From Aneurinibacillus soli (GTDB lineage Bacteria > Bacillota > Bacilli > Aneurinibacillales > Aneurinibacillaceae), in contig NZ_AP017312.1 in the NCBI RefSeq assembly GCF_002355375.1, positions 947,001 through 1,011,000 on the forward strand: DNA of 64,000 nt. Reading direction: 5' to 3'. Below, piece after piece: positions 21,648 through 59,214 of this stretch. Under the pieces are notes generated by a model that was not told the DNA's origin, did no database searches, and saw only the letters and a program-made list of their open reading frames with translations. The number at the start of each line of letters is the position of its first letter. Position 1 is the first letter of the stretch. The translations under genes were made by a program, and so were the position numbers.

Positions 21648-21803
21648 AAAACGCCCCTCTTGGTTAGAAAGAGGGACGTGTACATGTGTGTGCATCCTTA
21701 TCTTTCAGAACCGTTGTTCTGCGGGAGTTGGCACCTTACTGTTCAATGCAGCAGGTTGCCGGGTGTCATCGGGCCCGTCCCTCGACCATCTCGTGATAAG
21801 TCA
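21648..21803 (-). promoter_or_regulatory. SAM-I riboswitch (S-box) controlling mtnK
   Basis: Read on the minus strand: ATCACGAGATGGTCGAGGGA at the P1/P2 start, then GGCCCGATGACACCCGGCAACC, which is split here as GGCCCGATGA and CACCCGGCAACC, then AAGGTGCCAACTCC and the closing helix. The expression platform is the stem ACGTCCCTCTT / AAGAGGGGCGT followed by TTTTTTG (21679-21648). High SAM should terminate transcription. Confidence 0.93.
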
Positions 21804-22352: not shown

Positions 22353-22523
22353 GACTCTCATCGAGAGAAGGCGGAGGGACTGGCCCGATGATGCCCGGCA
22401 ACCTGCCTGTGTTCGCACAGGCAAGGTGCTAATTCCTGCAGGAGTAATCCTGGGAGATGAGAGGCTACCGATGCTTTATAAGTGGGGGCCTCTCTTTGTG
22501 TACCAAAGAGAGGCCTTTTATAT
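22353..22523 (+). promoter_or_regulatory. SAM-I riboswitch (S-box) controlling the ABC transporter
   Basis: CTCTCATCGAGAGAAGGCGG opens the P1/P2 region. GGCCCGATGATGCCCGGCAACC (quoted as GGCCCGATGA then TGCCCGGCAACC), the CCTGTGTTCGCACAGG P3 stem, AAGGTGCTAATTCC and GGGAGATGAGAG follow. The terminator is GGCCTCTCTTTG / CAAAGAGAGGCC plus TTTTAT (to 22523). Confidence 0.94.
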
Positions 22524-33915: not shown

Positions 33916-34404
33916 ATGAAGACATATTATTTTTATGACAAAAGGCAACAATTTATTTCGCTTACATTCTCTCCAGAAAACTTCCGTCGTGACGCAAAAC
34001 ATGTGCTCATCTGGGCATATGCGGACGAAAATCGGGAGCAAATCGTGCTAACGAAACATGATAAACGCGGGTGGGAGATGCCTGGCGGTAAGGTGGAACC
34101 AGGAGAGGCTCCAGAGGAAGCGGCTGTGAGAGAACTGTTCGAAGAGACAGGGGCTCATGCAGGAGAGGTGTGTCAGATTGGGCAGTATGTGATTAGACAA
34201 GAGGGAGGAGCTGCGGCTATCGTCAAAAATATTTATACGACCACAGTCACAGCGTGGAGTGATATTCCATCAGGGTTTGAAACGACAGAGCGTCGTGTAG
34301 TCTCATCTGATATTACAACGTTTAAAGCAGGGTTTAGTTCGCTGATTCAAGATAATATTTTCCCGTTATGTCGACAGGCGGCAAGGGGTAAGCAAGCGAG
34401 ATAG
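33916..34404 (+). CDS. Nudix hydrolase, YtkD-like
   Basis: This 162-residue protein has a perfect Nudix box ([24 protein letters not shown], here given as GGKVEPGE then REL-EETG). The N-terminal [19 protein letters not shown] and the overall length match YtkD, the B. subtilis 8-oxo-(d)GTP/RNA pyrophosphohydrolase. GAGGCGAAACG precedes the ATG. It is a single gene that ends where the first large palindromic repeat begins. The damaged-nucleotide role is inferred from family resemblance. Confidence 0.85.
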
Positions 34405-34414
34405 CTTTTTTTGG

Positions 34415-35020
34415 CATCGACAACGTGTAGTGGTAGGGAGTGGGAGAAGGAAGGAGCCGTTCGCTTCGGTACGCTTGCAGGGAAGAAGGCACTGTCCGCT
34501 CCGAGAGCCCGGCGAACTCGCCCGCAAAGAAAAGCCGCCGATGTTGGTTCACCGAAGCGTTGCGGGCAAAGGCCCGTTCGTCGTTCTCCCTCCGCTGAGT
34601 AGTCGCGTACAGGCGCTCTCTTGCTCCTTCTTTCTCCCCTCCCCGCGCAACGTTTCGGTTTACAAAAAACGCTTGACGCCAGAACGTATTTGCTTGGGTC
34701 GCAACTGGCTTTTTGGAAGCCTACTTCTTTTATTTTTTACCTGCATAGCAAAGCTCAGCCTCTTGATTATGCTTGAGGGTTTTCATCCAAACTGTGTCAA
34801 GAGCGGGATCGGGCGGGGGAACGGAACGCCTGTACGCGACTCCCCAGCGGAAGGGGTCAGGCGAACGGGCTTTTGCCCACAACGCTTCGATGCACATACA
34901 TCGTAGGCATGTTTTGTGGGCGAGTTTGCCTGGCACCTGGAGCGGACGGTCCCAACTTCCCTGTAAGCGTACCGAAGTGACGAGGCCCCGCCCGATCTCG
35001 CTCCTCTACCACACTTTGGA
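34415..35020. repeat. Compound palindromic GC-rich element, copy E1
   Basis: A non-coding element of about 606 bp made of two related palindromic units joined by an AT-rich spacer (~34680-34775). It starts ATCGACAACGTGTAGTGG right after a T tract and ends CTACCACACTTTGG. Inside each unit, long arms pair, for example CGCCCGCAA with TTGCGGGC. The same arrangement, including the spacer, recurs at 51115-51690, and a shortened copy is at 57185/59138. Open frames across it are by-products of high GC content. Confidence 0.85.
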
Positions 35021-35050
35021 GAAACCCTCCACCAAGAAGAGGGGGCCTTA

Positions 35051-51079: not shown

Positions 51080-51112
51080 AGGCCTGTGGCGTAGAAGCTG
51101 CAGGCTTTTGTT
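51080..51112 (+). terminator. Terminator of the paaABCD operon
   Basis: GCCTGTGGC and GCTGCAGGC pair, followed by TTTTGTTG. The palindromic element E2 begins within 3 bp. Confidence 0.78.
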
Positions 51113-51114
51113 GT

Positions 51115-51690
51115 ATCGACAACGTGTGGTGGTAGGGAGGGGGAGAAGGGAGGAGCCGTTCGCTTCGGTACGCTTGCAGGGAAGATGTGACTGTCCGCTC
51201 CGGGAGCCCGGCGAACTCGCCCGCAAAGAAGAGCCTACGATGTTGGTTCACTGAAGGATTGCGGGCAAAGTCCCGTTCGCCGTTCTCCCTCCGCTGGGGT
51301 AGACGCGTACAGGCGCTCTCTTACTCATCCCTTCTCCCCCTCCCCGCACAACGTTTCGCTTTACAAAAAACACGCGACGCCAGAACGGCTTTGCTTCCTT
51401 GTTTTTTACCTGCATAGCAAAGCTCAGCCTCTTGATTATACTTGAGGGTTCCTTCTCCAAAATGTGTCAGGAGCGGGATCGGGCGGGGCAACGGAACGCC
51501 TGTACGCGACTCCCCAGCGGAAGGGGACAGACGAATGGGCCTTTGCCCACAATGCTTCGATGAAAATCCATCGTGGGCATCTTTTGTGGGCGAGTTCGTT
51601 TGGCCCCTGGAGCGGACAGTCCTAACTTCTCCGCAAGCGTACCAAAGTGACGAGGCCCCGCCCGATCCAGCTCCTCCACCACACTTTGAG
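51115..51690. repeat. Compound palindromic GC-rich element, copy E2
   Basis: This matches E1 (34415-35020) over its full length of about 576 bp, including the AT-rich spacer. It starts ATCGACAACGTGTGGTGG and ends CTCCACCACACTTTGAG, so the ends form an inverted repeat GTGTGGTGG / CCACCACAC. It is non-coding. It lies between the aldehyde dehydrogenase terminator and the terminator of the MFS gene. Confidence 0.87.
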
Positions 51691-51713: not shown

Positions 51714-51754
51714 AGGCTGTCCCCGTTGCTGTATTACAGCGTTGAAGACAGCCT
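51714..51754 (-). terminator. Terminator of the MFS transporter gene
   Basis: AGGCTGTC and GACAGCCT enclose a second stem GCTGTATTACAGC. TTTCTT follows on the minus strand. A similar nested hairpin lies at 59162, after another palindromic element. Confidence 0.75.
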
Positions 51755-57131: not shown

Positions 57132-57178
57132 GAAGCTGTCCTAAAAGCCAGAATATGGCGAATGGGACAGCTTTTTTT
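57132..57178 (+). terminator. Terminator of the mccAB-yuzDB unit
   Basis: AAGCTGTCC and GGGACAGCTT pair with an inner CCA/TGG stem, then T7. The split palindromic element begins 7 bp later. Confidence 0.9.
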
Positions 57179-57184
57179 CGTGGT

Positions 57185-57302
57185 ATCGACAACGTGTGGT
57201 GGTGAGGGAGTGGGAGAAGGAAGGAGCCGTTCGCTTCGGTACGCTTGCAATGAAGTGGTGACTGTCCGCTCCGGGAGCCCAGCGAACGTGCCCGCAAAGA
57301 AA
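57185..57302. repeat. Palindromic element copy E3, left half
   Basis: This matches the first ~118 bp of E1 and E2 from ATCGACAACGTGTGGTGG to CCCGCAAAGAAA, then breaks off. The continuation is at 58941, beyond the IS110 element. Confidence 0.88.
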
Positions 57303-57315
57303 CATACTAAGATTA

Positions 57316-57432
57316 GTAGCACAGACCAAGGCCACGGTTTGTGCTACTATTTTTTTGTGGTAGAAGTGAAGAAACAGGCCGAGTGGGCTTCGGGATCTTG
57401 AATCCGTCAAAGAAACAGGCCAACTTCACTGC
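57316..57432 (+). ncRNA. Candidate IS110 bridge RNA
   Basis: The leader between left end and transposase folds into a first hairpin (GTAGCACAGACC with GGTTTGTGCTAC, 57316-57347). A second stem-loop is closed by AGTGAAG (57365-57371) and CTTCACT (57424-57430). Its internal loop carries AAGAAACAGGCC on both sides and an inner hairpin GGAT/ATCC. The loop sequence resembles the insertion target (CAAAGAAA then GGCC). Position and shape fit IS110 bridge RNAs; transcription is not shown. Confidence 0.6.
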
Positions 57433-57544
57433 CCTTATTTGAATCAGCTTCAGTATGTTGGATCCATTGAGATCGTGTATAAGAAAAGGGAATCGATAAG
57501 GATGCGTGAAGGCTTCTACAACGAACATCAGGAGGAGAACAACC

Positions 57545-58762
57545 ATGAAACATGTAGTCGCATTTGATGTAAGTATGGGAAAGAGCTATTGGGTGGTGTA
57601 CAATGCCGACCGGCACTGTGAGTTTGAAGGAGAAATCCGGCATACCCGTTCCGATTTTGAAGGGTTGCATGCCTGCATGGAGAAGCTGATCGAGCAAGAT
57701 GGGGAACAACCGTCCATTGTTTTCGAAGCTACGGGCGTATACTCCAGACAACTGGAACGCTTTATGCAAGATCATCAGTACACCTATTGCCTGTTAAACC
57801 CGCTTGAAGCCAAACTGCAGTCCGCTTCTATGCGGATGCATAAAACGGATCGAAGTGACGCTCATCGGCTGGCGTTGACTCATTTCACGGTCTCTCGAAG
57901 AGAAAAAGAAGTACCCAATGACTTCTTCCAGCAGCTAAAGTCTCTCTCTCGGTTTTACCAAGAATTAGACGGAGAACTTTCTACTCTTCGCAATCGGATG
58001 CATAAAGTCATTCAACTGACCTTTTCCGAACTGGAAACGATCTTTACAAGCCGATCGGAGCTCTGTTTACATGTCATTCAGTTATTTCCACATCCCGATC
58101 TCGTGAACGGTCTTTCCAAAACCGTAATCAGAAACCGGATTCTCAAGAGTACCGACAAAAAGTTATCGGCAGGTACCGCTGAGAAGAAAGCCATCCAGTT
58201 GCTTGAAGCCGCACAGAACTCGTATCCGGCGGTTTCCGCAACCGATGTTCTTTGTGACCAGCTACGCATCTATGTCAAACGTTATTTGGAGATTCTTCGC
58301 CAACGAGAAGCTCTGATTCGGCAAATGGAGGAAATGAGCATGCATCGAGAGGACTATCAAGTTCTTCTCAGCTTTCCGGGCATTGGGGTAAATACAGCGG
58401 TGCGTTTACTCGCCGAAATCGGAGACATCCGCCGCTTCGACAATCCGAAACAGCTCAACGCCTTTGCAGGGATTGATATCCGACGGTTCCAGTCCGGTAA
58501 AACCTTTTTCCAGGATAAAATCAATAAGCGCGGAAACAAGCACCTGCGTAAACTGCTTTACCTTGTCATTCAGAATATGATTAAACAGCGTCGTTTCGGG
58601 AACAACCATCTCGTTGAGTACTATGACAAAGTAAAAACGCAACCTTATAACAAGTGTCATAAAGTTGCGTCGATCGCTTGTGTAAATAAGCTCTTGAAGT
58701 GCCTCTTCTACCTTATTACACACAATCAGCACTATGAGTACCAGTGTGCCACCAGATCATAA
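57545..58762 (+). CDS. IS110-family transposase (DEDD RuvC-like plus serine domain)
   Basis: A 405-residue recombinase; ATG 57545 follows GGAGGAG. The N-terminal RuvC-like domain has D in AFDVSMGKSYW, E in VFEATGVYSRQLE and DxxD in KTDRSDAHRLA. The C-terminal domain contains LLSFPGIGVNTAVRLLAEIGDI and the catalytic serine region GIDIRRFQSGKT, followed by RGNKHLRKLLY. It is full length without frameshift, so the element may still be active. Confidence 0.93.
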   Translation: MKHVVAFDVSMGKSYWVVYNADRHCEFEGEIRHTRSDFEGLHACMEKLIEQDGEQPSIVFEATGVYSRQLERFMQDHQYTYCLLNPLEAKLQSASMRMHKTDRSDAHRLALTHFTVSRREKEVPNDFFQQLKSLSRFYQELDGELSTLRNRMHKVIQLTFSELETIFTSRSELCLHVIQLFPHPDLVNGLSKTVIRNRILKSTDKKLSAGTAEKKAIQLLEAAQNSYPAVSATDVLCDQLRIYVKRYLEILRQREALIRQMEEMSMHREDYQVLLSFPGIGVNTAVRLLAEIGDIRRFDNPKQLNAFAGIDIRRFQSGKTFFQDKINKRGNKHLRKLLYLVIQNMIKQRRFGNNHLVEYYDKVKTQPYNKCHKVASIACVNKLLKCLFYLITHNQHYEYQCATRS

Positions 58763-58782
58763 TGCAATTTCTATCATACCAT

Positions 58783-58833
58783 ATACCAAATAAACCTAGC
58801 AAAAAATAAAAACACCCTAGGTTTATTTGGTAT
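58783..58833 (+). repeat. Perfect 17-bp inverted repeat after the transposase gene
   Basis: ATACCAAATAAACCTAG and its complement are separated by 17 nt of A-rich DNA. It could terminate transposase transcripts or protect the element from outside transcription. Confidence 0.8.
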
Positions 58834-58940
58834 GTCAACATCCATACTTTCTGTGAAACCTGTTATTTTCTCTCCGCTTCCTCCCCCTGTTACTTACAAA
58901 ATAATCACTCAAAATCATTATGATTCACTTGACTAATCGT

Positions 58941-59138
58941 AAGAAAGGCCTACGATGTTGATTCACCGAAGGATTGCGGGCAAAGGCCCGTTCGCCGTTC
59001 TCCTTTCGCTGAGTAGGCTCGTACAGGCACTCTCTTGTCCTTCCTTTTCCCACTCCCCGCACAACGTTTCGAGTTACAAGAAAAAACACGCGACGCCAGA
59101 ATGGATTTGCCCGATCCCGCTCCTCCGCCACGCTTTGA
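58941..59138. repeat. Palindromic element copy E3, right half
   Basis: It resumes at AAGAAAGGCCTACGATG and runs to the end of the first palindromic unit. It then jumps directly to the terminal GATCCCGCTCCTCCGCC...CTTTG end of the second unit. E3 is therefore a shorter, one-unit form of E1/E2. Confidence 0.85.
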
Positions 59139-59161: not shown

Positions 59162-59214
59162 AAAAAGAGGCTGTCTCATTAGCCGTATTACAGCGTGTGA
59201 GACAGCCTCTTTCT
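59162..59214. terminator. Bidirectional terminator, mqnE side
   Basis: AGAGGCTGTCTCA pairs with TGAGACAGCCTCT, with A and T tracts on both sides. Confidence 0.88.

Follow-up and report, generated by a model that had tools for sequence, protein, structure and literature searches.

A palindromic repeat family with IS1182-type ends that probably replaces terminator hairpins in Aneurinibacillus soli and a sister species

Introduction

Hairpin-replacing transposition has been described for IS1272 and TnSha1, which belong to the IS1182 family of insertion sequences. As far as the excerpted texts of PMC5678879 and PMC4923244 go, it is known from a few dozen sites in staphylococci, where both elements insert into hairpin stems, deleting part of the hairpin but leaving no duplication; RNA-seq identified five of the seven sequenced targets as terminators (PMC4923244). 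In the case of IS1272, which is about 1.9 kb long and encodes a 548-aa transposase, the excerpts of PMC5678879 use the term 'IR-replacing' transposition.

Here, we describe a dispersed repeat of Aneurinibacillus soli that we regard as quite probably a non-autonomous, MITE-like family with IS1182-type ends, which replaces terminator hairpins and has end hairpins reading inward as terminators. Judged against the same excerpts, it resembles IS1272 and TnSha1 in its hairpin or terminator targets, the partial loss of the target, the lack of duplication, the position of the insertions just downstream of genes and the IS1182-type ends, this last likeness being drawn via another IS (L265, see below) and not via the IS1272 end sequence. 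It differs from them in having no transposase, in being only about 600-750 bp long, almost wholly palindromic and present in dozens of copies, and in possessing terminator-like ends of its own. Like REP/REPIN sequences, it is an extragenic palindrome; REPs, which measure 20-40 bp according to the excerpt of PMC3733652, bear a tetranucleotide tag of the GTAG type and go with a RAYT transposase, whereas the present element is more than ten times longer and has other ends, which sets it apart from them.

Copy number and structure of the family

The window, i.e., the whole 64,000-nucleotide stretch of DNA that was analysed (positions 947001-1011000 of the 4,116,770-bp A. soli genome, G000), contains three copies of the repeat, E1, E2 and E3, the parts of which are as follows (window coordinates):

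34398-34415, plus strand: E1 left end, inner half-arm and T-run (GAGATAGCTTTTTTTGGC) without the outer arm (from the sequence and the end rows)
34416-35020, plus strand: E1 core, comprising the half-A palindrome, the linker and the half-B palindrome; 605 bp, full length
35021-35047, plus strand: E1 right end, degenerate inner half-arm (...ACCAAGAAGAGGGGGCC)
51081-51109, plus strand: terminator left of E2 (GGCCTG...CAGGC followed by TTTT)
51115-51688, plus strand: E2 core, 576 bp between both core ends
51714-51754, minus strand: E2 right end hairpin (AGGCTGTCCCC...GACAGCCT), facing the convergent minus-strand gene
57133-57178, plus strand: E3 left end hairpin and T-run (AAGCTGTCCTAAAAGCCAGAATATGGCGAATGGGACAGCTTTTTTT)
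57185-57302, plus strand: E3 core part 1, element positions 1-117
57303-58940, plus strand: IS110-family insertion within E3, with the transposase ORF at 57506-58762 (NF033542)
58941-59138, plus strand: E3 core part 2, element positions 112-278, with an internal deletion and the right core end
59167-59212, minus strand: E3 right end hairpin (GAGGCTGTCTCATTAGCC...GAGACAGCCTCTTT)

Sequence comparison confirmed that E1 (34416-35020), E2 (51115-51688) and E3 (57185-57302 plus 58941-59110; interrupted by the IS110 insertion and also missing much of its second half) are copies of one dispersed repeat, as the preliminary description of this DNA had supposed, with dozens of copies and not three. E1 yielded at least 129 BLAST pieces in its own genome (40 of the 145 candidates were scored), and the 18-base end motif, with up to three mismatches, had 45 + 38 matches in the genome versus 2 + 2 for the reversed control; the pieces and this excess together exclude chance as the source of the family. 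Across the seven genomes of the genus that we compared, the pieces number 129 in A. soli and 115 in the sister species (G006; 3,853,322 bp); three of the outgroups (G001-G005) have 1, 2 and 5, all weak, and the other two have none. Full-length copies could be aligned from both sister species (32 from G000 and 20 from G006). A profile search found about 20 element places in 424 kb of the A. soli genome and only 6 in another 397 kb, so that the density is uneven and the total uncertain; our own estimate is of the order of one hundred elements.

The full element (about 600-750 bp) is laid out as end hairpin, palindrome A, linker, palindrome B and end hairpin. The internal cruciform arms noticed at the outset are real, in that halves A and B each form a hairpin, and the consensus of 40 copies is, as a whole, a single long palindrome. 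The longest ORF inside E1 encodes 158 aa (34430-34906) and lacks a counterpart in E2, and no ORF both spanning the element and common to E1 and E2 was found. For this reason, we speak of a non-autonomous element with IS1182-type ends and not of an IS1182 IS. Like bacterial MITEs, the element is short (under about 800 bp), has no transposase, bears terminal inverted repeats and occurs in many copies; unlike them, it replaces its target and shows no target site duplication, which is not expected for an IS1272-like insertion. The early suggestion of a MITE-like element located at terminators thus gains support, the family being polymorphic between the sister species, and mobilisation in trans would be in keeping with it.

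No Rfam covariance model, group II introns included, matched within the elements at the gathering threshold. The only Rfam matches of the window are two SAM riboswitches, at 22355-22463 (plus strand) and 21695-21802 (minus strand), which lie outside the elements, about 550 bp apart, and point away from each other. Scanning genome contigs with a core 20-mer, a search that may omit the organism's own or near records, gave one Streptomyces match, which we take as chance. Further long, GC-rich sequences that resemble palindromes and end in A/T runs were seen by eye near genes of outgroup G002 (L173 and L187); they possibly constitute an independent family of the same kind.

Ends of the element

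The core ends, GTGTGGTGG, had been taken both for the boundaries of the element and for the ends that a transposase would recognise. Neither view was borne out: most of the copies examined continue outward into a conserved hairpin, GAGGCTGTCYCAAAAGCCAGAACATGGC...GRGACAGCCTC followed by a T-run, which is inverted between the two sides, and the outer ends of the element are GAGGCTGTCYCAAAA hairpins, which also occur in one IS1182-type IS. The 'terminator' that precedes the core is itself repeated, as (A)GAGGCTGTCCCAAAAGCCAGAACATGGCGAACGGGACAGCTTTTTTGTGAT on the left and, inverted, as AGAGGCTGTCTCAAAAGCYRTAACAYRGCGACTGAGGCAGCCTCTTTTTTCTTGGTGTAGG on the right. Since most copies run outward into this conserved inverted hairpin, the terminator adjoining the core is usually the element's own end, and the sequence beyond the end hairpins varies from copy to copy. 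For this comparison, 61 left and 59 right end rows, including a few duplicates or internal matches, were printed, and their flanks were then aligned. A script detected the end motif in 42 of 62 left rows and 34 of 47 right rows, counts in which two duplicates are included and some of the scored misses show the hairpin by eye. In the genome, AGGCTGTCYCAAAAGCC with up to two mismatches had 56 matches, versus none for the control.

The ends are variable, however: E1, E2 and others lack the full end hairpin on one side, and E1 has only the inner half-arm on each side. The claim that the elements begin directly after a terminator holds for the native left terminators retained at E2 and at the L164 site, whereas elsewhere the terminator is usually part of the element. 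That the left terminator of E2 is native follows from its flank, which, including the 3' arm and the T-run, also aligned at the sister-species site without an element.

IS1182-type ends and candidate mobilisers

We searched phage contigs for GAGGCTGTCYCAAAA, which returned 58 stretches (the 18-base form gave none). One of these, L265, contains GAGGCTGTCTCAAAA twice, as perfect inverted copies 1,786 bp apart. Between them lie two ORFs with matches to the NCBIfam IS1182 transposase NF033551 (2.2e-48 and 7.5e-32); the frame is split, and neither match reaches the curated cutoff. One of the two ORFs also matches Pfam DUF772 (5.3e-19). Both ends of L265 can form small hairpins, one of them then followed by a T-run. 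The terminal inverted repeats of our element are thus of the IS1182 type by virtue of 15 bases common to its ends and to L265, and the dependence on this one IS weakens the link.

Apart from L265 itself, none of the 58 phage-contig stretches with the motif contains a relative of the L265 transposase. L284, from the same contig as L265, has another such end, and six stretches (L280, L284, L292, L296, L298 and L299) carry an end-like hairpin, no second end lying within 2.8 kb, which shows that the motif can be found in lone hairpins too. A 99-bp phage-contig stretch with perfect inverted GAGGCTGTCTCAAAA ends (L263, 994-1092) is a possible minimal relative, and most of the remaining stretches look like chance matches.

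The preliminary description had proposed to look for a transposase with matching ends. No IS1182 transposase was detected in the 1,284,705 distinct G000 bases examined (31% of the genome) or in the G006 DNA examined, by tblastn with the L265 protein as the one, distant query, which is a weak test. Consequently, the mobilising enzyme is one that we infer. Reading of ORFs by eye recognised no IS1182-like gene in the non-syntenic gaps or beside the solo hairpins described below. TnpB-like genes (named by eye) were seen a few hundred bases from solo end-type hairpins (L235, 1658-2770; L237, 4894-6051).

Three other types of IS were considered as mobilisers and rejected. The IS110 of E3 looks like an insertion into the element: its ORF has 100% identical counterparts in five other copies (L054, L056, L073, L074 and L077), at the same element position 112-117. 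This identity at one position points to a recently active RNA-guided IS, for which the element palindrome appears, on sequence grounds, to serve as the target site. The IS4-family DDE IS of L053 and L061 looks inserted into or beside the elements, as does the IS1595-like fragment of L080 (named by eye). Both L053 (2177-3490) and L061 (2415-3728) carry one and the same 437-aa transposase of the IS4 family within or next to the element, and at L053 the element is interrupted, with about 10 bp duplicated.

Filled and empty sites in sister species

The genomes of A. soli and its sister species are collinear in the stretches compared. Out of 70 A. soli places tried, 48 had a usable partner in the sister species, of which 20 contain element sequence and 28 do not (the script had paired 49 places; L068 was set aside as its match to L161 is element sequence only and disagrees with the comparison made in the reverse direction). 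In the reverse direction, 13 of 16 places tried were paired, 8 with and 5 without an element. Presence/absence variation, which the preliminary description had required of a mobile family, was thus found: relative to the sister species, copies are shared, lost or species-specific. We classed 26 empty sites, namely 17 of the 28 from the A. soli places (11 with longer gaps being left out), the 5 from the sister-species places and 4 further sites filled only in the sister species.

At 12 of these 26 sites (L006, L008, L011, L012, L022, L083, g0_1091, A, B, L161, L209 and L210), the species without the element carries an unrelated hairpin, which is missing from the filled site; when each of these sites was shuffled 20 times, no shuffle reached an equal hairpin strength. 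At L083, L161, L006 and L210, the flanks are conserved, by eye, and this conservation includes 2-5 bp at the outside of the native stem. The remaining 14 sites give no sign of replacement. One of them (g0_1283) retains the native hairpin beside the element. Eight sites (L005, L019, L023, L026, L078, D, L164 and L215) have a solo hairpin of the type found at the ends of the element; only L215 was labelled element-type by the script, which missed solo hairpins with loops above its limit and, for L026, chose another hairpin, and the other seven were assigned by eye. L164, which retains about 15 bases of the core start, is clearly a deletion scar, and L023, which retains 7 bases, is probably one; the other six may be either scars or earlier targets. 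At the last five sites (L004, L009, L027, L085 and 585k), no hairpin passed. The empty sites called for at the outset were therefore found, and no target duplication was seen by eye in the boundary and empty-site tables. Insertion into the T tract of a terminator is not supported as a general rule, and we have rejected it as such: the supposed target terminator is in most cases an end of the element itself, and the native hairpin is gone at the 12 sites listed above.

The outgroups provide the polarity of some of these changes. At site A, A. soli and all four outgroup loci examined (G001, G003, G004 and G005) have a simple terminator of homologous sequence, and the element is present in the sister species only. 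By eye, a simple hairpin occurs at site B in five of five outgroups and at L022 in four of five; the sequences of these outgroup hairpins differ, which indicates that terminators turn over fast. The outgroup query for L083 matched paralogues.

Copies differ from the consensus by about 10%. Identity is 80-90% in the six orthologous pairs shown, versus a paralogous median of 84.7%; as orthologous pairs are no closer than paralogous ones, we date the burst around the species split. Identity to the consensus is 0.910 for the copies missing from the sister species (n = 13) versus 0.897 for the shared ones (n = 8), so that the former are not clearly younger and some absences are losses. At L055 (L151 in the sister species), the element occupies a common site in opposite orientation in the two species, through inversion or independent insertion.

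Genomic placement

Among the 41 A. soli element sites scored with a home-made gene caller (two further loci were unscorable), 23 lie between convergent genes, 17 between co-directional genes and 1 between divergent genes; the background is 84 convergent pairs out of 680 gene pairs in the two regions compared. In the co-directional gaps, the orientation of the element is mixed (7 versus 10). Convergent gaps normally contain a terminator; its presence in the empty species is therefore expected, and what is informative is its absence from the filled one.

Mode of insertion

We propose that an IS1182-family transposase, acting in trans, would join the element to a target hairpin, either at the base or in the stem; in most cases, this hairpin would be an intrinsic terminator separating convergent genes. 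The native hairpin would lose its inner part without any target duplication, as in the transposition termed 'inverted-repeat-replacing' or 'stem-loop-replacing' for IS1272 and TnSha1. As the end hairpins and their T-runs read inward, transcription from either side should still stop, and the insertion would be tolerated. The partly deleted hairpin target characteristic of IS1272-like insertion was observed at the 12 hairpin-replaced sites, and the outgroups support this at sites A and B.

It is unlikely, in comparison, that another transposase inserted the element into convergent gaps in the ordinary way and that the redundant native terminator was deleted later. Such a course of events would agree with the preference for convergent gaps, with the age of the copies, which date from about the time of the species split and so leave time for deletion, and with the survival of the native hairpin at g0_1283 and of the left one at L164 and E2. 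Three lines of evidence weigh against it. First, twelve sites have lost the native hairpin, and several junctions fall inside the stem, with the flanks intact. Second, chance deletion should leave ragged junctions. Third, the ends match those of an IS family for which hairpin replacement has been published.

Much less probable still is a spread by template switching during replication, or by recombination between hairpins, with no transposase. The few bases that junctions share with the base of the native stem (GAGG, GGA and AGAAG; by eye) and the rare variant common to both end hairpins of L019, suggestive of an exchange between arms, would be in keeping with it; however, a repeated, end-specific process is needed to account for full-length copies that number in the dozens and share their ends, and those ends match an IS family.

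RNA- and DNA-level constraint

Departures from pairing were counted as G-U or A-C on a consensus structure restricted to Watson-Crick pairs. A first alifold count (399 G-U versus 80 A-C) was discarded as biased, for G-U pairs had been permitted when the structure was chosen, and a comparable excess appeared on the minus strand. In the core, the whole hairpin shows 608 G-U versus 618 A-C deviations, and the half palindromes 106 versus 140 and 132 versus 127. In the end hairpins, by contrast, the left one shows 112 G-U versus 25 A-C and the right one 76 A-C versus 35 G-U. From this strand bias, the ends look selected as RNA on the inward-reading strands, whereas the core does not; the structured RNA envisaged in the preliminary description was accordingly rejected for the core, RNA-type strand bias being confined to the two end hairpins. 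Compensatory double changes exceed those of shuffles, which ignore relatedness, in half A (42 versus 11.3 ± 2.7) and half B (36 versus 13.7 ± 2.9), and could also stem from arm-to-arm correction; covariation over the whole hairpin is not significant (167 versus 147 ± 10, with shuffles of the same kind). The least credible reading takes the entire element not for a mobile one but for a conserved structured RNA or an sRNA gene. Only the double changes in the half palindromes speak for it, whereas the core shows no preference of G-U over A-C, inward terminators at both sides should block transcription, the elements have no Rfam match at the gathering threshold and the two sister species differ in where they carry them.

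Origin of the core

Outgroups G001-G003 have single-palindrome relatives of half B, and L033, L036, L039 and L041 are homologous to it (nhmmer, 2.4e-27 to 7.8e-33). The G003 relatives end in GGGTCTACATCAAACTCTGTGCTTGAC, which has 23 of 27 bases (hand count) in common with one end of an ISL3-family IS of the sister species (L220; PF01610), and L036 has a 9-bp direct repeat. These ISL3-type miniature elements, alike our element in their homology to half B, differ from it in that each consists of one palindrome only, measures about 310-330 bp and bears terminal repeats like those of ISL3. ISL3-type ends were kept in none of the 39 old or partial matches in the G000 and G006 DNA examined. Going by these sequence likenesses, we infer that ISL3-type miniature palindromes may have been captured between IS1182-type ends.

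Conclusions

The proposed mechanism is of a known kind, IS1272-like hairpin replacement; neither an IS1182-type MITE nor this transposase-less, mostly palindromic family was found described among the literature matches listed. The family seems to represent many uses of hairpin replacement within a single genome. Natural before/after pairs are supplied by the sister species and the outgroups, which provides a data set for locating the position of the cut in the hairpin stem. The family also calls for caution in annotation, as a single mobile unit can look like a 'terminator plus repeat' in genomes of this sort.

For the biology of these bacteria, hairpin replacement offers a route for wholesale terminator turnover. 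We put forward, tentatively, that a transposase-less IS1182-type element has rewired the terminators of two sister species, its ends being under RNA-level selection and its inner palindromes being kept complementary, with no strand bias, at the level of DNA, where they perhaps form cruciforms for transposition. If this is true, a noticeable share of the native bidirectional terminators between convergent genes would have been replaced and would now be supplied by the element.
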